Source: a virus. From it: a stretch of 38,848 nt of DNA. Positions within the stretch are counted from its first letter, which is position 1, and the number at the start of each line of letters is the position of its first letter. Under the pieces are notes generated by a model. That model was not told the origin of the DNA and ran no database searches. It worked only from the letters and a program-made list of their open reading frames with translations. Of this stretch, positions 3,483 to 17,827 are shown in pieces. Both the position numbers and the translations under genes were made by a program. The stretch is from IMG/VR virus record IMGVR_UViG_3300031565_000140, positions 1 to 38,848 of that record. One strand, given 5' to 3'.

Positions 3483-3964
3483 TGTTCGTTTGTAATTCCA
3501 TCAACTAACTCATATATCTCATCTATAAGATAAGGTCTTCCTGTGAGTTTGTTTTCTTCTGGGACAATCCCTACTCTTAATCTCTCGACTCTTTTAAAAA
3601 GTTTATCACCATAAAGAATATTGATGTCGGGAAGTGCATCTCGTTCCTCAATAGATTCAACATGGAGGTGACAAGCATTTCCAGCCATCATCAAAGCAAG
3701 TTCCCCTTGCACAGTCATACCCTCATATAAGATTGCTGCGACTTCATCACCGAATTGACCAAGTAGTCTTTCGGCTTCATCTATCGCAACACTGGTCTGA
3801 TTGTCGAGTTCATCCTTTTTACGATTCAATAAGTCCTGAAGCATCCATCTAGTGACTTCGAGTGCGAAAAAGCGGTCTTCTGGTTTCTGTTCGTAATCAT
3901 CTGGCAGTCCAATGTAGGGTCTCCCCTGTTCATTTAAACCAATCTCATATTCAATTTTATACAT
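3467..3964 (-). CDS. Hypothetical protein
   Basis: A 165-residue acidic protein. It starts MYKIEYEIGLNEQGRPYIGLP, has a long helical centre (residues ~30-75, rich in E/L/R), and ends with a compact segment around GRPYLIDEIYELVDG. The phrase GRPYI/GRPYL occurs twice (residues 14-18 and ~142-146), in N- and C-terminal regions that may be structurally related. It overlaps the upstream metallopeptidase-like gene by 8 bases, so the two are likely translationally coupled. No function recognised. Confidence 0.65.
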   Translation of the reverse strand: MYKIEYEIGLNEQGRPYIGLPDDYEQKPEDRFFALEVTRWMLQDLLNRKKDELDNQTSVAIDEAERLLGQFGDEVAAILYEGMTVQGELALMMAGNACHLHVESIEERDALPDINILYGDKLFKRVERLRVGIVPEENKLTGRPYLIDEIYELVDGITNEHWVKI

Positions 3965-4715
3965 GTTCTAAGTTTTTAGGGTCATACCAGCCAATTTTTA
4001 GGTCTTTCTGACAGTTTAGACAATATTCTTTACCATCGCTAATACACCAAGCATCTATTGTCATACACATCGCTGTTTCCACCCCACATTTAGCGCATTT
4101 ACACAAATCTTTTGATTTTGGTACTAATCGCTTAAGGGTTTCCTCTGTTATTGAAAATTTAGAATTTGGGTATTGGATATCCAGAATTTCACATGCAAAT
4201 GTATTGGCTTCGACTTCCAGAGGGTCTACTTCATGAAAAACGTGTTCAACACTCCTGAGTGTATACGGATATTGATTCAACCACATCTCCCGGTTTTTAT
4301 TATCAAGACATGATAATATTTGGGGATTATGGGATTGTACGTGGTGTCTGAATTCGTGGAATAATAACCATAAGAATGCCACGACTTTATGGTCTTCCTC
4401 TAAATCGAGATGAAGCGTTAACACACCTTTCTCTTCATCATAGATTCCGAGTTTTTTGGTTTTCTTTAACCAAGGGTTATCACCTCTCACCAATTCCTTT
4501 ACAACTATTTTAAATGGTAGATATTTAAGTAGGTCCGGTCTTTTCTGAACCAGAATTTGGGAAAACAAGTGACAGGGTATGGCGATGTTGTCTTTATATG
4601 GTGTTTCATAACTGATGTCCAGCACATTCATCACAAACAAGTCCTCACTAACTTTCTCATTTAACTTTTGATACTTCTTAATATCGGCTTTCCTATATGC
4701 AACGTCTTTTCTCAT
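3957..4715 (-). CDS. Zinc metallopeptidase-like protein with C-terminal zinc ribbon
   Basis: A 252-residue protein with HEFRH (120-124), a perfect HExxH zinc-binding and catalytic motif on a hydrophobic helix (VAFLWLLFHEFRHHVQ). A downstream EVEANTFACEIL (167-178) can supply the third zinc ligand (E169), as in ImmA/IrrE-type gluzincin peptidases. The C-terminal 50 residues add Cys pairs CAKC (207-210) and CLNC (232-235), a likely structural zinc ribbon. It is the first gene of the minus-strand operon that reads to the left edge, with a host-type promoter directly upstream. ImmA-like peptidases cut repressors in mobile elements; whether this one has a host or phage target is unknown. Confidence 0.7.
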   Translation of the reverse strand: MRKDVAYRKADIKKYQKLNEKVSEDLFVMNVLDISYETPYKDNIAIPCHLFSQILVQKRPDLLKYLPFKIVVKELVRGDNPWLKKTKKLGIYDEEKGVLTLHLDLEEDHKVVAFLWLLFHEFRHHVQSHNPQILSCLDNKNREMWLNQYPYTLRSVEHVFHEVDPLEVEANTFACEILDIQYPNSKFSITEETLKRLVPKSKDLCKCAKCGVETAMCMTIDAWCISDGKEYCLNCQKDLKIGWYDPKNLEHV

Positions 4716-4733
4716 ACCTTATTGAGTTAACTA

Positions 4734-4764
4734 CAAATATATAACAATCTTTTGAGAATGAAAC
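4734..4764 (-). promoter_or_regulatory. Host-type (Bacteroidetes sigma-ABfA-like) promoter
   Basis: On the minus strand TATATTTG (plus 4741-4734) matches the Bacteroidetes -7 element TAnnTTTG. Nineteen bases upstream (plus 4764-4761) is GTTT, a partial -33 match. The start codon at 4715 follows after 18 bases. It would drive the metallopeptidase/helicase operon. Confidence 0.55.
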
Positions 4765-4786
4765 CATTTTTTAAAAAAACTTTCAA

Positions 4787-4794
4787 GTATTTAT
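4787..4794 (+). promoter_or_regulatory. Late promoter box GTATTTAT
   Basis: GTATTTAT followed by TAGAAAAC, ending 16 bases before the ATG of the neck-like gene at 4811. It is identical to the box upstream of ten other virion genes in the window. It sits back to back with the minus-strand host-type promoter. Confidence 0.75.
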
Positions 4795-4810
4795 TAGAAA
4801 ACATTGCAAT

Positions 4811-5935
4811 ATGGCTTTAATTACCGTAGCAGAAAAAAACAAATTATATCTCAAAGTCAAGCATGAGTTAGGGTATCCCATGAGACCACTTGTGTTACCG
4901 GATGAGAATCTTGATTCTTATTTAGAAATGGCTGTTGAGGATTATTCAGCATTTCTTAACCAATGGATAATTCATCAACAATGGACTAATCTTGAGGGTA
5001 TGAGCAAAGAAACCGGAGATTTCCTTGCAGCATTTACAACCAAATCAAATACTTATATGGAATCATTCACCTATGCGTATAGTCGTCAGGTGGGTATGGG
5101 AACAAATGCTCCAGCAGCACGTGGCTGGGAACTCAAAAGAGATTTTATCACAACTTTAGCACATACTCAACATTATATCATCCCGGCAGGTCGTGAGGTA
5201 AACGAAGTACTATGGGAAACCCCACCACAAATCGATGGTGGACTCGTTGACCCATTTGCATTAAACGCTTGGAGTGCTGGTATGATGGGTATGTCATATC
5301 TTGGTCGTCCCGCATTATATGTACAGCCGACTTTCTCGACTCTGTTAAGCGCACAGGACCGTAGAATGAAACAAAGGGTGTTGCAGTCAATACTAACGTA
5401 CCGCATCACTGGTCTGGCGACTGGTGAAAAGATGTTGCATCTCTATCCGGTTCCTAATGACCGTCATGAAATTGCTGCATCGTGGGGCAAACATTACGCA
5501 GGTAGAAAAGTATGGTATTGGTACTACGACACCGATGGAAGCGAAGAAGACAGAGATAATTGTCTTGAAGAAAATAACGATGTCGTAAAACTACCTTCAG
5601 ACCCACCAACAACTATATTACAATGGGGAAATATGAATGATGTTGCTCGTCAGCAAATAAGAAATTTACTTATCGCCAAGGTGAAAATTGTAATTGGTGG
5701 TGTCAGGGGATTTTATAGTGGTGAACTTGGCGTTGCTGATAAGCAATTAACAATGGATTATCGTCACCTACTCGATGAAGGAGAAAAACTAAAGGAAGAA
5801 ACTGAGAAACTTATTCTTGAGCAATTGGAGAAAATGAGTCAAGCTAATCTAGCTAAAGAACGTGCTGATATTGCAGAAGCGGTTAACAGAGAACGTGGTT
5901 ACCAGCCACCTATGTACCCAATAATTCCGATTTAA
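4811..5935 (+). CDS. Neck / head-tail connector protein, T4 gp13-like
   Basis: A 374-residue protein whose ends follow the plan of T4 gp13, the neck protein that closes the filled head and docks the tail. Near the N-terminus, a short helix is followed by LGYPMRPLVLPDENL, then a helix with DYSAF, comparable to the gp13 segment with LGAP. Near the C-terminus, RQQIRNLLIAKVKIVIGG is followed by DKQLTMDYRHLLDEG and a long E/K-rich helix. The family is usually ~300 residues, so this is longer in the middle. The assignment is by pattern, supported by the adjacent gp14-like gene and an upstream late promoter. It starts at the first ATG after the late box, with no Shine-Dalgarno sequence. Confidence 0.6.
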   Translation: MALITVAEKNKLYLKVKHELGYPMRPLVLPDENLDSYLEMAVEDYSAFLNQWIIHQQWTNLEGMSKETGDFLAAFTTKSNTYMESFTYAYSRQVGMGTNAPAARGWELKRDFITTLAHTQHYIIPAGREVNEVLWETPPQIDGGLVDPFALNAWSAGMMGMSYLGRPALYVQPTFSTLLSAQDRRMKQRVLQSILTYRITGLATGEKMLHLYPVPNDRHEIAASWGKHYAGRKVWYWYYDTDGSEEDRDNCLEENNDVVKLPSDPPTTILQWGNMNDVARQQIRNLLIAKVKIVIGGVRGFYSGELGVADKQLTMDYRHLLDEGEKLKEETEKLILEQLEKMSQANLAKERADIAEAVNRERGYQPPMYPIIPI

Positions 5936-9590: not shown

Positions 9591-9952
9591 TTGTTTTTAA
9601 ATTTATTGTCGCTTTCCAATTTATTAAACAATTCAGTGAGTTCGGCTGCTTTTCCTTCACCCAAAGGATAATAAAATGTTGGTTTGATGTTATATATGAT
9701 TTGGGGTATTTCTTCGTTTCGATATGCGTTTTCTGTAGTAATTGCATCATGAAAAGATACTCCACAAAGATGTATTGCTTTTGTAATACAAAAATATGTG
9801 GCTTTATCCGTTATAACCCTTCTACCGTTTGAACGCCTATCGAATGAATAATCACCAAACAGTTTGATGATTTCCGACCTGAAATCATTAATATTCTCTG
9901 AAATAACGGCAATAATCTGTTTTTCCACAGTCTTATTTTTCGGTCTACTCAT
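9587..9952 (-). CDS. Hypothetical protein
   Basis: A 121-residue basic protein, beginning MSRPKNKTVEKQIIAVI. It contains a central ITDKATYFCITKAIHLCGVSFHDA segment and a C-terminal YNIKPTFYYPLGEGKAAELTELFNKLE that looks globular and helical. It overlaps the thymidylate synthase start by 4 bases and abuts the gene upstream, so it is part of the nucleotide-metabolism operon. No family is recognised. Confidence 0.65.
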   Translation of the reverse strand: MSRPKNKTVEKQIIAVISENINDFRSEIIKLFGDYSFDRRSNGRRVITDKATYFCITKAIHLCGVSFHDAITTENAYRNEEIPQIIYNIKPTFYYPLGEGKAAELTELFNKLESDNKFKNK

Positions 9953-10314
9953 TATCGGTTCTTTAATTGTTCTAATTTTCTATCAACAAATTCAGCAGTA
10001 AATTCTGCTTCAACATCAATAGATGAATAACCATTAAATTGGTTGAAGTCATATGTTTTAGTTGCGGTTTCCACTTCTTTACAGATTTCCAAGACTTCTT
10101 TATCTGTCATTTCAACACTGCGAATAACTCTACTAATCACCATTAACGGCAAGAGTTCAAATTGTTCCGATTTACCTTCTTCACGCTTATCATACATGTA
10201 TAGAAATGCAACATTCATTGCTTTGGTTGCTTTCTCTTCGAATTCTTCACTTGTTCCATCGAAGAATCCCATTTCTTTCCATTGATTTCTGGTAAATCCT
10301 TTTCTATCTTTCAT
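9952..10314 (-). CDS. Hypothetical protein
   Basis: A 120-residue acidic, mainly helical protein (DGTSEEFEEKATKAM; DKEVLEICKEVETATK) with no recognised motif. It overlaps the HAD-like gene upstream by 4 bases and the next gene by one, typical of translational coupling. Context alone places it in the nucleotide-metabolism operon. Confidence 0.65.
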   Translation of the reverse strand: MKDRKGFTRNQWKEMGFFDGTSEEFEEKATKAMNVAFLYMYDKREEGKSEQFELLPLMVISRVIRSVEMTDKEVLEICKEVETATKTYDFNQFNGYSSIDVEAEFTAEFVDRKLEQLKNR

Positions 10315-10622
10315 TTATAAGGTTGATTTGTTTGTCTTTTATGTAAATAAACTGGTGAATCATCATAAACGATTCGTGGAGATTTGACTCCGAAAAGAAT
10401 TCGATACATAACACCCAAGTCGTCAAGGTCTTTTAATATTGTGTTTTTAGTGTTCTCTATGCTCCATATAGTTCCCTCATCTTGTTCACCACGCATTGTG
10501 ATGAAAATGATTTGTTCACCAGCATTATGCAGTGCAATTAATGCTTCTTTAGCACCTTCAAGCCATTCGCTTGTGTGATAATTAACGATTGTTCCGTCTA
10601 TGTCAAAAATATGTGCTGCCAT
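10311..10622 (-). CDS. Small HAD-superfamily hydrolase
   Basis: A 103-residue minimal HAD protein with motif I FDIDGTIV (nucleophile D7, acid/base D9), motif II FITMRG (T42), K80 in FGVKSPR as the likely motif III lysine, and motif IV IVYDDSP (D87/D88). The cap is reduced to a short loop, as in capless C0-type HAD phosphatases of phages. A phosphatase on nucleotides or on DNA/RNA 3' ends is plausible given the neighbours, but the substrate cannot be read. Coupled by short overlaps to both neighbours. Confidence 0.85.
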   Translation of the reverse strand: MAAHIFDIDGTIVNYHTSEWLEGAKEALIALHNAGEQIIFITMRGEQDEGTIWSIENTKNTILKDLDDLGVMYRILFGVKSPRIVYDDSPVYLHKRQTNQPYK

Positions 10623-10852
10623 TAATGTTGATTCTTCTTGAATTTTGCACTATATGCGATAATGTCCTTCACATCGTATTTTTCAAATACGTCTTCAATG
10701 AACGTGTCAGTTGCGGGATAAATGAAATCATCTTCATTTCGATGAATAAATACATCTTCTTCAACATGAATTGTTGTACCCTCTGGTTTAAATTGACTCC
10801 AAAGAGCATCATAAATATGCAGGTTTCCGTCAATTAATATTTCTTTTTCCAT
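10622..10852 (-). CDS. Hypothetical protein
   Basis: A 76-residue acidic protein starting MEKEILIDGNLHIYDAL. An upstream in-frame ATG at 10933 would extend it into the MazG gene by 77 bases, so I use the ATG at 10852, 4 bases after the MazG stop. It contains repeated acidic loops (VEEDVFIHRNEDDFIY) and ends SAKFKKNQH. No domain recognised. Confidence 0.65.
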   Translation of the reverse strand: MEKEILIDGNLHIYDALWSQFKPEGTTIHVEEDVFIHRNEDDFIYPATDTFIEDVFEKYDVKDIIAYSAKFKKNQH

Positions 10853-10856
10853 TTTA

Positions 10857-11228
10857 TTACCTATAATCTCCACTCCCACCAAGAACACCTCTCTTCTGGC
10901 GGTCATGAAGTTTTTCGATGTTGGCAACTGCAACGTCTTCTAAAGTAATACCCAGATTTTCGCACATCGATGTGATGTACCATAAGGTGTCTCCGAGTTC
11001 TGATTTTATTTCTTCGGTGGCTTCTGGTGTTATGATTCCACCGTTGTCCCTAATTACTTTTTTTATTTTTCCCTGTGCTTCCCCGGCTTCACCTAGACCT
11101 AGACCATCATAAACAACAGCAATTAATTTAATTACGTCATCATTCATGTTTGGAAAGATTTTCTGGAACTTATCAAGACTAATCTTGAGAGCCACGGCTT
11201 CCTTCTGATATTCGTTAAACGTCTCCAT
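10857..11228 (-). CDS. MazG-like nucleoside triphosphate pyrophosphohydrolase
   Basis: A 123-residue single-domain MazG-like protein. The metal-binding pattern is visible as GLGEAGEAQGKIKK (E47, E50) and EIKSELGDTLWYI (E77, D80), the ExxE and ExxD pairs on two helices of the all-alpha NTP pyrophosphatase fold. These enzymes hydrolyse (d)NTPs to NMPs plus PPi and, in phages, are thought to tune dNTP pools or (p)ppGpp signalling. It lies in the same operon as thymidylate synthase and a HAD hydrolase. It overlaps the upstream gene by 14 bases. Confidence 0.9.
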   Translation of the reverse strand: METFNEYQKEAVALKISLDKFQKIFPNMNDDVIKLIAVVYDGLGLGEAGEAQGKIKKVIRDNGGIITPEATEEIKSELGDTLWYITSMCENLGITLEDVAVANIEKLHDRQKRGVLGGSGDYR

Positions 11229-11526
11229 TACCCACTTTTTTTATTTCTTCAATTAGTCTTAGAATGTTTTCAGGTGGTGTATTACTCTCGATTTTCTCCC
11301 TAATTTCCTTTAGGTATTCATCTTCCATTTCTTGATTAAGGTTAATGGTTTCTTGTAATCTCTGGAGAGCGAATCTGGCTTGTGAGCCAGCATCTATTTC
11401 AATAAATGAAATCAATTCATTCACTAGGGGTTGGTTGACTTCATAATTTTTCGCATCGGCATAAAATAAAAGTGCTTGTTTTAGTAGTTCGATTTGATTT
11501 ATATAATCTTCTGTGCTATTCGTCAT
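11215..11526 (-). CDS. Hypothetical helical protein
   Basis: A 103-residue helical protein beginning MTNSTEDYINQIELLKQALLFYADAKNY. A longer frame from 11577 would overlap the KTSC gene by 62 bases. The ATG at 11526 overlaps it by only 11 and gives a natural N-terminus, so I prefer it. Residues ~45-60 contain FIEIDAGSQARFAL, the most conserved-looking part. Function unknown. Confidence 0.65.
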   Translation of the reverse strand: MTNSTEDYINQIELLKQALLFYADAKNYEVNQPLVNELISFIEIDAGSQARFALQRLQETINLNQEMEDEYLKEIREKIESNTPPENILRLIEEIKKVGNGDV

Positions 11527-11848
11527 CTTCTTCGGGGGTATTATTCTCCACAATATCCTTAAGTTCTTGAACTTCATGGGGATAGTAAGTGTATTCCTTA
11601 TAACAAGGATAATTTAATTTTATTCTTTTATGAAAGAATTTGCCATGTGATTCGGCTTCTTCAAATTCCATATAGAAATCTAAAGGAATATTAAGGTATA
11701 GATACGTGTGACCACGACTGAATGTAATGTAAAGTTTTTCAGTATCAGCAAAATATACTGTTTTTAGTATGTTATCTGATTTAAAAACGGACTCCACATA
11801 TCCCAGACTCTGGTCTTCATTCAGTACTTCTTTTCGTTCTACGAGCAT
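11516..11848 (-). CDS. KTSC-domain protein
   Basis: A 110-residue protein whose residues ~20-80 follow the KTSC domain plan: FKSDNILKTVYFADTEKLYITF, then SRGHTYLYLNIPLDFY, then EEAESHGKFFHKRIKLNY. KTSC domains (~60 residues, named after lysyl-tRNA synthetase C-terminal fusions) are common in phages; an RNA-binding role has been suggested but is not established. This is the first gene of the 11848-7777 minus operon, directly downstream of a well-formed host-type promoter. The acidic tail (NNTPEEDDE) is probably disordered. Confidence 0.75.
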   Translation of the reverse strand: MLVERKEVLNEDQSLGYVESVFKSDNILKTVYFADTEKLYITFSRGHTYLYLNIPLDFYMEFEEAESHGKFFHKRIKLNYPCYKEYTYYPHEVQELKDIVENNTPEEDDE

Positions 11849-12689: not shown

Positions 12690-13510
12690 TCATATTTACC
12701 GTCTTTAGTATCAAAAACATTTCCATCAGGATAATCCTGCTTTTCATTATTGAAATTATCTACTCTGTTATTTACCCTATTAACATAGGCATTGGTTGGT
12801 GGATACTCGAACATTGTTACGTTATCTGAAGTGAATTGCCATTCCATTGTTTGTGGATATAGACGGGCTTCAATATACATTTTTTTCGGTGTACTTAAAC
12901 CCGCATTTGCTTGGTTATAAAATAACGATATCTTACCTTTCTTTGCGTTATAAAAACTAATTTTAACATATGCTTGAATCGTAGTATAGCCACTGTAAAT
13001 GTATGGGGCAAGATATGATTCAGGAATATACCAGCTATAAAACTGATTTATATTTGTGTTACTGATTTTATATATGGGTACTGGAATATCGTCTTCAGTG
13101 GGGTCAGTTTCACTATCTAATATTTTTGTGTTGTAGATTGTAAATATTTTATTCTGGGTGTAATCATCAAAACTATCATAAAAGTCCAGAATAAAGAAAC
13201 TATTACGTATTACATTGGCGTTATCATTAATTTCTGTTGTGGTGAAACCTGCTCCGGTAGAACCAAAAGAATCATTTGCTGAACTACCGTTGGGTGTGAA
13301 AAAGAAGGTCAATGTCGTCTCAGTAGTTTCCTTTTTATATTTATATTTACGTACCTCATAGTCAATAACCGGATTAATTAGCTCTTCTTTGGCTTTCTCA
13401 TTCAAATTGTCAATTTGTTGTTGGTAATCAACAAACTCATCACTAATTTTTAGAGGTAACTTTATGAAAGTATCAGCACCATTAAATTTTATCGTCTCTT
13501 TTATTGACAT
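12686..13510 (-). CDS. Probable virion surface / tail protein
   Basis: A 274-residue protein with a helical N-terminal stretch (residues ~25-45, QQQIDNLNEKAKEEL), then a beta-rich body rich in aromatic, Thr and Asn residues (FSWYIPESYLAPYIYSGYTT; KKMYIEARLYPQTMEWQF). It is coupled by a 10-base overlap to the larger gene upstream, which is behind a late promoter, so it is expressed late with structural genes. Composition and layout suggest a tail fibre or baseplate-associated protein. No catalytic motif or named fold is visible. Confidence 0.65.
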   Translation of the reverse strand: MSIKETIKFNGADTFIKLPLKISDEFVDYQQQIDNLNEKAKEELINPVIDYEVRKYKYKKETTETTLTFFFTPNGSSANDSFGSTGAGFTTTEINDNANVIRNSFFILDFYDSFDDYTQNKIFTIYNTKILDSETDPTEDDIPVPIYKISNTNINQFYSWYIPESYLAPYIYSGYTTIQAYVKISFYNAKKGKISLFYNQANAGLSTPKKMYIEARLYPQTMEWQFTSDNVTMFEYPPTNAYVNRVNNRVDNFNNEKQDYPDGNVFDTKDGKYD

Positions 13511-15114
13511 GGTTTATCTACGTTATTTAAATCATCTTTTGTTGGTGTAATATCCAATGTGGTGGCATCAGGACTAAACCAAATTTCTTCAAACACCAGA
13601 TTTGTGGGGTCGTGTTTAAAATTAACATCTTCCGTTAAATTAGGAATAACATTCAATATGACGGGTGAAAATAAATATCTTCTTTCATTAAAAAACGGAT
13701 AATCAACACCAACGCCAGTTAGGGGTTCCACATATCCTTGTGGATTTATATCACGCCACACAAGCCTTCCTTCAGTTGTGAGAATTGTTGCATAATCTGG
13801 TATTGTTTCTACTTTTCTTTCTCCGGGGTTCGGAATTAATTGGACTCTGACTCTAATTCGATTACCACTGAGATATGCTTTACTGAAATTCACAGATTGT
13901 TCCGGGTCATCATTTGAGAAGTATTTTCTTGTGGTTCCTACAATAGTAACCCACATACCTCCAACATATTCTTGCATATCTGTTTGAGCAATATATTGGT
14001 CAGTACCTTCGGGTAAATATATTTTTGTTTTGAAACTAATGTTATAGAAAGTATTGTTTTGAAATTGTAAATAACCATCTTCTTCATCCCAACTAAAATA
14101 TGTTGTGGTATTAGCATCCCAATTCTCGATTACATTAGCGGTTGTTGTTAATGTTTGCTTTTGTGATTTGGTCCCATTAAATTCATTAGAGGGGCTATAT
14201 ATTGGTATGACATCAAGAGTTGTTGTATTCTCAATAACCTGACTTGCTTTAGTACTATCCAAATCATCACTAAGATATCTTAACCTAAAAGGAATAAATG
14301 GGTTATATTTCCACTCCAACCATTTATTTCCACCATCATTATATCTGGTTCTGATGTAAAAAAATTGTTCTTCTAATTGTTGTTGATAAAAATCTTCTCT
14401 TTGGTATTCGATTATATCGTGAATATTACTACCATTATAGTCTTCAACATCGTCACCAACATTCAGGTCTTTTGTTGTGAATGTGTTATTTTTACTTTTA
14501 ACACCATAGCTTGTCCATGTAGTTCGTGACATCTGTTCGACAATATTAGATGACTTTATATATTGAGCATATAAAAACAATTCAGTTACCGGGAAACCAA
14601 AATAGTCGAAGAGATTACTGACATCAATATCTGATTTGAAACTAAATGAATATACTTGTTCACCATAAACATTATTACTAAACCCAGCATTATATATTTC
14701 AATATCGTCCATACCCGCAATTACAATAAAACTTCTTATACGTTGGGTTCCAGCAGTGCCAACAATAGAACCATAAGAATCAGTTGGGTGTGGGGCTACG
14801 AGATAAAACTGGAACGAATTGAGAATGTTCTTTGAATTTCCGGTATATATTGGATTGAAAAAATCTTCTAAATCATTATGTCCTTGTTTAATTCCATTTA
14901 ATAACGACATCCATTCAATCCTACCATATATTCTATAGATGGGATTATCTTGTCTTTCGTTATCAAACACCAATGTGGAATCCACAATATCATTAATAGC
15001 GAATTCCATGATTTCCGACTTATTACTTGATAATTCAATCTTATCATATGAGTCAGTATTAATAGAATTGATGTTTTTCTGGTTACCGAGTAATATTTCA
15101 ATCTTTTTATCCAT
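13501..15114 (-). CDS. Large probable virion surface / tail protein
   Basis: A 537-residue, beta-rich protein starting MDKKIEILLGNQ, dominated by Thr, Asn and aromatic residues. Segments such as MQEYVGGMWVTIVGTTRKYFSN and NRIRVRVQLIPNP suggest stacked beta domains typical of tail fibre or baseplate appendages. I chose the ATG at 15114. A frame start at 15156 would add 14 hydrophobic and basic residues but lies upstream of the late box at 15127-15120, whose transcript could not include it. With 15114 the leader is only about 5 bases, so the mRNA may be leaderless. Function inferred from context only. Confidence 0.65.
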   Translation of the reverse strand: MDKKIEILLGNQKNINSINTDSYDKIELSSNKSEIMEFAINDIVDSTLVFDNERQDNPIYRIYGRIEWMSLLNGIKQGHNDLEDFFNPIYTGNSKNILNSFQFYLVAPHPTDSYGSIVGTAGTQRIRSFIVIAGMDDIEIYNAGFSNNVYGEQVYSFSFKSDIDVSNLFDYFGFPVTELFLYAQYIKSSNIVEQMSRTTWTSYGVKSKNNTFTTKDLNVGDDVEDYNGSNIHDIIEYQREDFYQQQLEEQFFYIRTRYNDGGNKWLEWKYNPFIPFRLRYLSDDLDSTKASQVIENTTTLDVIPIYSPSNEFNGTKSQKQTLTTTANVIENWDANTTTYFSWDEEDGYLQFQNNTFYNISFKTKIYLPEGTDQYIAQTDMQEYVGGMWVTIVGTTRKYFSNDDPEQSVNFSKAYLSGNRIRVRVQLIPNPGERKVETIPDYATILTTEGRLVWRDINPQGYVEPLTGVGVDYPFFNERRYLFSPVILNVIPNLTEDVNFKHDPTNLVFEEIWFSPDATTLDITPTKDDLNNVDKPCQ

Positions 15115-15119
15115 ATATA

Positions 15120-15127
15120 ATAAATAC
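15120..15127 (-). promoter_or_regulatory. Late promoter box GTATTTAT (minus strand)
   Basis: On the minus strand GTATTTAT followed by TATATATG, where the final ATG is the start at 15114. The 5-base distance to the start codon is unusually short compared with 14-16 at the most similar sites. Confidence 0.6.
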
Positions 15128-15143
15128 CTGCAAATTTTTTTCT

Positions 15144-15160
15144 GAAATTGTAACAATTTC
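15144..15160. repeat. Perfect inverted repeat, possible operator
   Basis: GAAATTG-TAA-CAATTTC is a 7-base perfect dyad with a 3-base spacer. CTGAAATT occurs at 15142-15149 and again at 15163-15170, so half of the dyad is directly repeated. It lies between the divergent late box and the lipoprotein gene, where a regulator could bind. Confidence 0.45.
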
Positions 15161-15189
15161 TGCTGAAATTCGTATAATGAGTATGTTTA
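15159..15189 (+). promoter_or_regulatory. Possible host-type promoter of the lipoprotein gene
   Basis: TCTG (15159-15162), 19 bases, then TATGTTTA (15182-15189) fits the Bacteroidetes -33/-7 pattern with one mismatch in each element. The ATG at 15200 follows 10 bases later. If used, the lipoprotein is expressed independently of late transcription. Confidence 0.35.
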
Positions 15190-15199
15190 ACTAAAAATT

Positions 15200-15628
15200 A
15201 TGATGATGAAAAAAGTAACTTATTTATTGACGATTATGTTTGCTGTTGTTCTGATGAGCACCAGTTGTTGCGAAGACGACCCGGTTGTTCCCGACCTGAC
15301 ACTCGAAGAACAATATTCTGAATGGTCGAACCTCTCATGGGTATCAACCAATGGTAATGATGTCAATTATCAACCAGTTGAAGAAACCTATCCCCGCCTT
15401 TACATTAGAATTGAAGGTAATGTGGCGACTGTTACAGATTCTCTTGATGAAAATATTAGAAGAAAATATCAATTCGAGGAAATTATACTTGATGATGCAT
15501 TTATTACTTTTACCGATTCAAAACAAGTTAGTGGTGTGGAAAGAACATTTAAAATTCTTCTATATACTGGAAGCGGAGTGAAATTAGAAGATGTGGATTT
15601 CGATTTTGATGTTTTTATTTTACAATAA
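15200..15628 (+). CDS. Phage-encoded Bacteroidetes-type lipoprotein (moron)
   Basis: A 142-residue secreted lipoprotein. The signal peptide has a basic start (MMMKK), a hydrophobic core (residues ~6-19, VTYLLTIMFAVVLM) and a lipobox-like STSC, with C23 (or C24) as the lipidated Cys. The mature start CCEDD places acidic residues directly after the Cys, resembling the lipoprotein export signal that sends Bacteroidetes lipoproteins to the cell surface. The mature domain (~115 residues) is acidic and beta-rich (YIRIEGNVATVTD; DDAFITFTD). The gene is on the opposite strand to its neighbours with its own promoter region and terminator, the layout of a moron. Superinfection exclusion is a reasonable guess; a virion role is less likely. 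Three consecutive ATGs make the start uncertain by 6 bases. Confidence 0.8.
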   Translation: MMMKKVTYLLTIMFAVVLMSTSCCEDDPVVPDLTLEEQYSEWSNLSWVSTNGNDVNYQPVEETYPRLYIRIEGNVATVTDSLDENIRRKYQFEEIILDDAFITFTDSKQVSGVERTFKILLYTGSGVKLEDVDFDFDVFILQ

Positions 15629-15631
15629 ATT

Positions 15632-15660
15632 AAAACCCGCTCAACTGAGCGGGTTTTTTT
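15632..15660. terminator. Bidirectional rho-independent terminator
   Basis: AAAA-CCCGCTC, loop AACT, GAGCGGG-T7: an 11 bp stem with a GC-rich core and a T-run in the plus direction and A/T tract in the other. It separates convergent genes ending at 15628 (+) and 15659 (-). Confidence 0.9.
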
Positions 15661-17803
15661 ATATTATTCCGAGGTCTGCTAAAAAAGCAATGCAATTGGA
15701 TGGACCCCAACCCTTATAAAAATATTTGGTGTCATCAGGACCAGCAGTAGGGTCACCACCATCTTTCTGCCCATTCATTGGTGCTGCATCAGTTACAGTC
15801 CAATCAGGGGGAATATAATCACCATTACGATATTCAGCACCACTTAAAGTAATAATATCATCAGTAAATCCTTTTGAGGGAACATTATCATTCATTGTAA
15901 GTATATCGGTAACAGGAACCTCAATAATATCAGTCCAATGTGCATCAGAACGAGCAAACCATTTGGTGTTAAATTGTAATGCAGCTATTGTTTGTTGATT
16001 ACCCCCAACGAAATAATTGTTTAAATATCTAAATATTGTACCAAAAGTACCTTCTCTACTTTTTTGATGAGAAAAATTATCATTCGTTCTCACCCACCTC
16101 ACATCTTCCCAACCATCTGTACTATATCCCACCTGTGGAAGATGAACACATAGATTTAACCACGCTGCCCCAAACACATCAAGGTCACCATGACCAACTA
16201 GCGTTGCATTGCTTGGAAACTGATAATCACTATTAGGTTTTTCTCCACTGGTTTCAGTTATTAATATATTAACATTCCAATTTGGGTCTCTGGTAGCAAT
16301 ATTATTATCAGAAAATTCCATAAATCCATCTTCTTCAGTTTGGTCAGCATCATTTTCATGGTCATTATAGGTAAGTCCATGAAACTTAGCAACACTATAA
16401 AATTTTCCACCCTCAAAAGTTTTATGTTGAAGTCTCCATGCATTAGTATCGCTGGTGTCGTCTCCAGTTGATTCATTGGGTGGTTCAAGTCCATGATTTC
16501 TATTAGCGTATTGTGGGAATTTTAATTTATATCTAAGTGGTACGACAGTAAGATTATTACCTAACTCATAACTAAAATTCATTGGAACTACTTCATCACT
16601 AACTTCTAATGTCAAGAACCCCTTGAATTTTGTAAATATTCCCTGAACACTATCATTATCCACAGAAACCGGGTTTCCTAATTCATTGGTGATGATTTTA
16701 TCTCTGTTACAATTTATTATAACAACAAAATCACCATCACGTTTATATACGGAATACTCGCTTTTATCCAGAAGCACCATATCACTACCATCTTCTTCAA
16801 CATCACCAGTGTCAATTTTTTCATCGCTAACATTTGTTGGATAATAATAAATCTTTTCCGTAACTTCTCCAACTCGTTTATTCCAGACCCCAAATAAATT
16901 TTCCGATGGGTCTCTAGCTCTGAAGTATTCACGAATATGTTTGCCACCTTCCCAATCACTACTCCACATTGTATTATCACCATCAGTAAAGACACTACCG
17001 AAAATAACGAAAGTATTGGTCAATACTGAACGAATTCTGAAGTCCTGACGAGTGATTCCGATTTCAAAAATCTCCGCATCACCCCAGAATGGTCTAATAT
17101 CAACAGTTATTTCTTGTGTTTCGATGTTCGGTAAATCACCTAAATCTCTACTTGGTTTTATTCTGGTGTTATTATCGGTAAATAGATTTGGTGAATAACC
17201 AAGATTTGTTACCATAGATGCCGGGTTCATGCTGTATTCACCAATATCTGTGATATCACAACTCAGGTGAACGGTTTTTGTGCCAACTGGTACGCCAAAT
17301 ATCATGTAATCACCCGCTTTATTTGTAAGCGCAGTATATTTATAATATTTATTATATGCTTCTAAAAATGGTGGGTTTGCCACGACCTCTTCTTTAATTG
17401 GAAAGCTGCCAAATGGTTGTTTCGGTTTTATTATTTCGGTAATGGGGTCTTTCTTTGAAACTCGTGGAAGTAAATTATATCGTTTTCCCTCGTTATTTTC
17501 ATCTCTTGGTGTTTTATATGGATAAACGCTGTAGAGTTCAGGATTTAGTGCATCTTCGTCAGTAAGGGGGATAAATATACTTATTCTAGCATTTGGGATT
17601 CCAATTCCACCGTTAGCAATTACTCTACCAACTAAAACACCGTAATCCGCATTAAAATTCTGATACACATCCGCAGTACCAAGACTCATTGACATGAACT
17701 CAAGTGTTTCAACATCTTGTTCGAGTTTTACTTTCACGTATTTATCCAGATTCTGGTTTCCAGTGTAACCCGTACTAAAATAGATTCGTTGGGATTTATT
17801 CAT
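15659..17803 (-). CDS. Large virion protein with an N-terminal carboxypeptidase-regulatory/Cna-B-like domain
   Basis: A 714-residue protein starting MNKSQRIYFSTGYTG. A segment at ~residues 55-75 (VGRVIANGGIGIPNARISI) with a later partner YTALTNKAGDYMIFGVPVGTKTVHL (~155-180) matches the beta-sandwich pattern of carboxypeptidase-regulatory or Cna-B-like domains, with a long insertion between the two halves. Such domains are common in Bacteroidetes surface and phage adhesion proteins. The remainder is beta-rich, ending KGWGPSNCIAFLADLGII. The ATG at 17803 lies 16 bases after a late box, so it is preferred over the frame start at 17902, which is upstream of that box. Probably a tail or baseplate component; exact role unknown. 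Confidence 0.7.
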   Translation of the reverse strand: MNKSQRIYFSTGYTGNQNLDKYVKVKLEQDVETLEFMSMSLGTADVYQNFNADYGVLVGRVIANGGIGIPNARISIFIPLTDEDALNPELYSVYPYKTPRDENNEGKRYNLLPRVSKKDPITEIIKPKQPFGSFPIKEEVVANPPFLEAYNKYYKYTALTNKAGDYMIFGVPVGTKTVHLSCDITDIGEYSMNPASMVTNLGYSPNLFTDNNTRIKPSRDLGDLPNIETQEITVDIRPFWGDAEIFEIGITRQDFRIRSVLTNTFVIFGSVFTDGDNTMWSSDWEGGKHIREYFRARDPSENLFGVWNKRVGEVTEKIYYYPTNVSDEKIDTGDVEEDGSDMVLLDKSEYSVYKRDGDFVVIINCNRDKIITNELGNPVSVDNDSVQGIFTKFKGFLTLEVSDEVVPMNFSYELGNNLTVVPLRYKLKFPQYANRNHGLEPPNESTGDDTSDTNAWRLQHKTFEGGKFYSVAKFHGLTYNDHENDADQTEEDGFMEFSDNNIATRDPNWNVNILITETSGEKPNSDYQFPSNATLVGHGDLDVFGAAWLNLCVHLPQVGYSTDGWEDVRWVRTNDNFSHQKSREGTFGTIFRYLNNYFVGGNQQTIAALQFNTKWFARSDAHWTDIIEVPVTDILTMNDNVPSKGFTDDIITLSGAEYRNGDYIPPDWTVTDAAPMNGQKDGGDPTAGPDDTKYFYKGWGPSNCIAFLADLGII

Positions 17804-17819
17804 AATAAAAATGTTTCCT

Positions 17820-17827
17820 ATAAATAC
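17820..17827 (-). promoter_or_regulatory. Late promoter box GTATTTAT (minus strand)
   Basis: On the minus strand GTATTTAT followed by AGGAAAC, ending 16 bases before the ATG at 17803. This spacing equals that at 4811 and fixes the start of the 714-residue gene. Confidence 0.75.

Follow-up and report, generated by a model that had tools for sequence, protein, structure and literature searches.

Introduction

To our knowledge, detailed descriptions of superinfection-exclusion lipoproteins are confined to coliphages, where those that have been solved act from the periplasm. Bacteroidota have a dedicated route that places lipoproteins on the cell surface. The llp gene of phage T5 adjoins the receptor-binding gene pb5, coliphage exclusion lipoproteins adjoin gpJ, and T5 Llp works from the periplasmic face of its receptor (PMC9586334). 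In Capnocytophaga, the surface-export signal C-x-K-(D/E)2-x has been experimentally defined and suffices for surface display there, and functional counterparts exist in Bacteroides and Flavobacterium (PMC5080379). Ltp of Streptococcus phage TP-J34 is likewise a phage-encoded lipoprotein, which sits on the surface of the host and prevents superinfection (PMC3952083). Its host is Gram-positive, its phage is temperate, and the protein differs from the one studied here. No described case of a superinfection-exclusion lipoprotein from a Bacteroidota phage was found in the literature searched.

Here we analysed a virus contig of 38,848 bases (the window), which carries a lipoprotein gene inside a tail gene block. 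Like T5 Llp, Cor (T1, phi80) and Rtp45 (phage Rtp), it is an accessory gene for a predicted small phage outer-membrane lipoprotein, and it likewise lies beside a tail gene, here that of a '747' protein with a variable C part and a putative adhesin role. Llp is expressed early, and the cassette in the window has a separate promoter. Unlike Llp, Cor and Rtp45, whose fold is small and disulphide-bonded, the cassette protein is a predicted lipocalin-like barrel, and unlike Llp and Rtp45, which act at the periplasmic face, it carries a Bacteroidota surface-export motif. No sequence homology to Llp or Cor was detected: three members of the family gave zero tblastn matches in 50,697 phage records, and there was no PHROG match. 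We see an even chance that the gene encodes a surface-displayed lipocalin-like superinfection-exclusion protein, with its own pre-late promoter, that would block the receptor outside the cell.

A lipoprotein gene within the tail block

The lipoprotein gene runs antisense to both of its flanking genes, a layout that the sequence-only reading had reported and that the ORFs confirm (Table 1). The product of the ORF at 15200-15628 (+) begins MMMKKVTYLLTIMFAVVLMSTS/CCEDDPVVPD, with the cleavage context MSTS/CCEDD (the slash marks the cut); the true start is probably at 15206 (MKKVTYLL), because relatives begin at MKK. The protein has the basic n-region, the hydrophobic core and the lipobox with an invariant Cys expected of a bacterial lipoprotein. 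The signal peptide, the lipobox STSC and the CCEDD at the cut, all described earlier, were confirmed, the Cys being present in 34/34 relatives. For the upstream neighbour, listed as 551 aa, a TTG start was replaced by the ATG at 15114 on the evidence of relatives, so that the divergent intergenic region measures 85 bp. The window lipoprotein had no match in Pfam, PHROGs, PDB sequences, the 50,697 phage records or a bacterial genome collection, and Rfam and tRNA scans of the window returned nothing.

Table 1. Positions of the lipoprotein gene, its parts and its neighbours in the window (a slash marks the cut)
Feature	Position	Strand	Remark
'551' tail-block protein, divergent from lipoprotein gene	13501..15114	-	537 aa from ATG; start from relatives
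Presumed late promoter box GTATTTAT, 551 gene	15120..15127	-	box enrichment
-35-like element TTGTAAC, lipoprotein promoter	15148..15154	+	conserved in 32/34 relatives
-10-like element CGTATAAT, CGT of ECF-sigma type	15171..15178	+	conservation; CGT mark per PMC9723704
Conserved leader element TATGTTTAACTAAAA, ahead of start codon	15182..15199	+	conservation among relatives
Lipoprotein gene	15206..15628	+	140 aa from ATG 15206 (probable start); ORF opening at 15200 (142 aa)
Signal peptide and lipobox MKKVTYLLTIMFAVVLMSTS/C	15206..15268	+	Cys +1 = residue 21; kept in 34 distinct relatives
Surface-export-like motif C-CEDDP, from lipidated Cys	15266..15283	+	family motif; defined in PMC5080379
Predicted mature lipocalin-like beta-barrel domain	15296..15625	+	model residues 31-140 (AlphaFold2)
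Bidirectional terminator between convergent lipoprotein and 747-aa genes	15632..15657	.	stem -17.7 kcal/mol
'747' tail-block protein, convergent with lipoprotein gene	15659..17803	-	714 aa from ATG at 17803
Presumed late promoter box GTATTTATA, 747 gene	17819..17827	-	box enrichment

The terminator ascribed to the gene is indeed a strong stem, but it is bidirectional and common to the convergent 747-aa gene, so the gene does not own it alone. The inverted repeat GAAATTG-TAA-CAATTTC, which had been taken for an operator, exists but lies over the -35 element and is one of eight exact 7+3+7 inverted repeats within the window; other relatives have at most 4 paired bases at that place, and the repeat is a chance occurrence.

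Nearby genes encode a tail tube protein and a 915-aa tail sheath protein (phrog_23, E 2e-65). The carriers of the cassette are presumably large contractile-tailed phages of Bacteroidota. The only direct hint of the host is a related contig inside a Bacteroidota MAG, and no sequenced isolate was found for the phage group.

Occupancy of the site among relatives

The first relatives comprised one near-identical contig and then relatives found through the 747 protein, with a lipoprotein at the same place and in the same orientation. A conserved 254-aa protein of the tail block, used as bait, yielded 73 viral loci and the Bacteroidota MAG contig. Both flanking tail genes were present at 67 loci, and at 42 of these the lipoprotein gene lay between them in the same orientation. 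Another 24 were cleanly empty, with just 5-43 bp between the flanking genes, and the last held a decayed remnant (L059). At this remnant (9741-10007), the promoter and terminator are retained, and the bulk of the gene, signal peptide included, is deleted. As some contigs were near-duplicates, the set comprises 34 distinct lipoproteins.

The absence of the gene from 24 of the 67 loci shows that it is dispensable. On the tree of the 254-aa protein its presence changes 16 times, at least 4 of them on well supported branches, and presence and absence do not cluster on that tree (16 changes against 18.3 when shuffled). On this evidence, the cassette is a locus of this phage lineage that is repeatedly gained, lost or swapped. 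One locus (L103) has two tandem lipoprotein genes (10500-10913 and 11066-11545), each with the promoter described below, which share the same signal peptide and differ in their mature parts; another lipoprotein (L087) has an extra segment ahead of the barrel, and weak Ig/PKD-like Pfam matches occur within the set.

The gene had been called a moron, a term classically applied to prophage genes. Its promoter, the terminator and the absence from 24/67 loci fit that label; for the prophage sense, the sequences seen here give no indication, so that the word is a loose one. We favour a description as a self-contained accessory cassette that consists of its own promoter, the lipoprotein gene and a bidirectional terminator and that occupies one fixed place within the tail block.

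Promoter class and expected timing

That the gene has its own promoter was borne out by conservation, at sites other than those proposed earlier: sigma-70-like promoter sites numbered 8 against 10 expected from shuffles. The promoter block reads TTGTAAC-N16-CGTATAAT followed by TATGTTTAAC (15182-15191), and in the longer form TTGTAAC-N16-CGTATAAT-TATGTTTAACTAAAA it is conserved upstream in relatives despite their very divergent mature parts. Promoters of the ECF-like class TTGTAAC-N16-CGTATAA precede 32/34 distinct lipoprotein genes. A matrix trained solely on eight non-lipoprotein sites of a 200-kb relative (G001) recovered the element upstream of 32/34 lipoprotein genes, and in most cases its score exceeded the 99.9th percentile of shuffles. 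In flavobacteria, a CGT -10 box typifies ECF sigma factors (PMC9723704). All ten sister genomes carry at least one sigma factor gene, and some carry up to three. In G001, an ECF-like sigma factor gene (L017 13374-14030, -; G001 53374-54030) overlaps the end of a primase-like gene.

Both boxes recur about 8 more times in G001, all within 0.6-34 kb and mostly 20-60 bp upstream of a start codon. Among the products of the genes behind them are an ATP-dependent DNA ligase, a GmrSD_N protein, a 277-aa protein that is exported and, following a small ORF, a PurZ-like synthetase. Across ten large sister genomes, the exact pattern gave 92 matches in 9 of them, mostly clustered, and the reversed control gave 0. 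The next such promoter lies 111-157 kb from the lipoprotein site in 4 of the 5 genomes examined (G001, G008, G011, G012), and G006 has another copy, likewise with this leader, ahead of a small membrane ORF 3.7 kb away. This promoter class otherwise sits mainly in non-structural regions. In L054 (13491-13600), a second copy with a TGTTTAACTAAAAA leader lies beyond the 747 gene, before a small membrane ORF beginning MKYLYAWLVALLIFEAEG.

The neighbouring tail-block genes carry a different box, AGTATTTATA, which usually precedes the ATG by 22-28 bp and in the window is present ahead of both flanking genes. In G001 it stands ahead of 33/216 ORFs, against 1 antisense, and we presume from its position that it is the late promoter. 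The box is strongly strand-specific throughout the phage group and precedes many tail genes. The T4-type TATAAATA was rejected as a late promoter, since the box enriched on the coding strand is its reverse, GTATTTATA.

The lipoprotein promoter is thus distinct from that of the structural genes, which makes expression apart from the late genes plausible. Of the earlier proposal that a promoter and operator allow pre-late expression, the promoter stands and the operator falls with the inverted repeat. The data support a lipoprotein promoter that is separate from those of the structural genes and probably pre-late; because these phages encode their own sigma factor, 'early' could be 'middle'. The host sigma-A consensus TTTG-N19-TAnnTTTG was not found at the lipoprotein gene. 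In 148 Bacteroidota genomes, the strict promoter pattern gave 9 sites against 1 for the reversed pattern; the element is therefore uncommon in these genomes and led to no host regulon.

Export signal and mature domain

The signal peptide, the lipobox and the residues after the Cys are constant across the family, and the mature parts are highly divergent. The consensus from the Cys onward is C-E-K-D-D-D, with E at +2 in 12/34 proteins, K at +3 in 22/34 and D or E thereafter; 31/34 have at least two acidic residues within +2 to +7, and the net charge is negative in 28. The window protein, with CCEDDP, is acidic and has E in place of K at +3. The family consensus fits the C-x-K-(D/E)2-x signal (PMC5080379), so that scoring of the motif upheld the Bacteroidota surface-export type proposed from the sequence alone. 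Going by this motif, infected cells probably display the lipoprotein on their surface.

Among phages whose 254-aa proteins are at least 85% identical, the mature parts share a mean identity of 32%, against about 23% when shuffled. AlphaFold2 modelled both the window protein (pLDDT 80.6) and the L047 protein (pLDDT 86.2) as barrels. Compared with solved structures, the window model matched best with 4qrl (Z 10.5, rmsd 3.2 over 96 residues) and 5byp (Z 10.0), the L047 model giving Z 9.6 and 8.6 for the same entries. Potempin E of Tannerella forsythia, which belongs to a group of small protease inhibitors, was also among the matches of the window model (Z 7.3). Weak matches to Pfam Lipocalin_4 (PF13648; E < 0.1) were obtained for 6/34 proteins, the best at E 2e-4; the window protein had no PF13648 match, the family cut-off not being reached. 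We therefore assign the mature domain of these two modelled proteins to a lipocalin-like barrel with moderate confidence. The predicted fold and the presumed host phylum are those of the Bacteroides lipocalin-like lipoproteins (4qrl, 5byp; PF13648), from which the window protein differs in its low sequence identity (about 15%), its phage encoding and its phage promoter.

Co-variation with the 747 tail protein

Proteins of the 747 family combine an N part that is conserved (1-280) with a C part that is variable (281-713). With the 254-aa backbone controlled for, similarity of the mature lipoproteins correlated with that of the 747 C parts (partial Mantel r 0.54, p 0.001; 29 phages). Residues 1-100 of the 747 protein (r -0.13) showed no such correlation, nor did the 551 protein in its variable part (r 0.04) or over most of its length, and signal peptide similarity did not correlate with the 747 C part.

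The 747 C parts fall into two deep classes that match two lipoprotein classes. In the mature-domain tree, six distinct lipoproteins of 747 class I form one fully supported clade, and this lipoprotein type occurs in 8/9 class I and 0/24 class II phages (naive Fisher 6e-7, computed over rows with kinship ignored). The backbone tree calls for 6 changes of the 747 type and 5 of the lipoprotein type, but only one independent switch falls on well supported branches. When class II is taken by itself, the correlation is weak (r 0.27, p 0.04) and declines with distance from the shared 3' junction, so part of it may reflect co-transfer of adjacent DNA; for the full set it is 0.54 at 1 kb away and 0.61 at the junction. 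The lipoprotein type thus matches the 747 C part, and co-transfer of one DNA block is a possible cause.

Candidate function

In the exclusion reading, the lipoprotein would be produced ahead of the structural genes, in the early or middle phase of infection, then exported and lipidated at Cys21. The acidic export motif would flip it to the outer face of the outer membrane, where the lipocalin-like barrel would bind or cover the phage receptor, which the neighbouring 747-aa tail protein probably recognises through its variable half. Further particles would then be blocked from adsorbing to the infected cell and to debris, that is, superinfection exclusion. We infer here the timing, the surface display, the receptor binding, the exclusion and the role of the 747 protein as adhesin. 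Since Llp acts from the periplasmic face, masking at the surface would be a different mechanism from that of the model cited in the sequence-only reading. Receptor masking gains plausibility from the co-variation of the mature domain with the variable half of 747, and small lipoprotein genes beside receptor-binding tail genes are typical of coliphage exclusion (PMC9586334). Against it, searches of Pfam, PHROGs and PDB with the 747 protein returned no recognised adhesin domain (a weak CarboxypepD_reg match in 4/17), and the barrel could bind something quite different.

The fold could also suit a lipoprotein, at the surface or in the periplasm, that alters the cell otherwise, by binding a ligand (lipid, sugar or haem) or inhibiting a host protease or transporter; the infected cell or the progeny would be protected, and the diversity of the lipoprotein and of 747 would both follow the hosts. 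The Bacteroides lipocalin-like proteins and potempin E among the structure matches, together with the weak Lipocalin_4 hits, point in this direction, but the Z scores are middling, a common fold shows no function, and the lipoprotein-747 class match would have to arise solely through common host range; we judge this possibility unlikely. Action from the periplasmic face, as described for Llp and Rtp45 (PMC9586334, PMC12685063), is less probable still, because those proteins are small (Rtp45 about 6 kDa) and disulphide-bonded whereas the lipocalin barrels have about 110-120 residues, and because the acidic export motif favours the outside. The variable regions of the two genes abut at their 3' ends, and the weak class II decay with distance would fit a gene that has no fixed function and owes its match with 747 solely to exchange of one DNA block holding both. 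We give that account only a slight chance, as promoter, signal peptide and export motif have persisted across 34 distinct proteins and the full-set correlation 1 kb away about equals that at the junction. Its position between tail-block genes and its co-variation with 747 could also mark the lipoprotein as a virion or tail-assembly component, which is very improbable given the lipoprotein signal, the opposite strand, the non-late promoter and the loci that do without the gene.

Returning to exclusion by a surface-displayed protein, a wider proposal, to which we give somewhat less than an even chance, is that the family forms a new exclusion class of Bacteroidota phages. A constant promoter, leader, signal peptide and export tag would be combined with exchangeable lipocalin-like heads working from outside the cell, each swap of a head taking the receptor-reading half of 747 along with it, so that each phage type would carry a matching receptor blocker. 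If exclusion at the surface is correct, the cassette would offer a handle on Bacteroidota phage receptors, as the lipoprotein should pull down its own receptor; it would also predict which tail protein is the adhesin and define a phage promoter class for expression timing.

Further genes of the phage group

PurZ-like enzymes serve the synthesis of 2-aminoadenine (Z) DNA. The PurZ-like adenylosuccinate synthetase of G001 (phrog_1211, E 2e-49) is encoded at 3801-4955 (-) of L016, which covers G001 20001-40000. The G001 DNA ligase (L016 1301-2932, -) has an in-frame HNH/AP2 homing-endonuclease-like insertion at residues ~218-347. In two contigs, a 397-aa ORF beginning MLKAIKIRIYPNQIQDNYMVNLLGSSRFVYNN, apparently of the TnpB type, adjoins the tail block (L035 10696-11889, -; L036 8244-9437, -).
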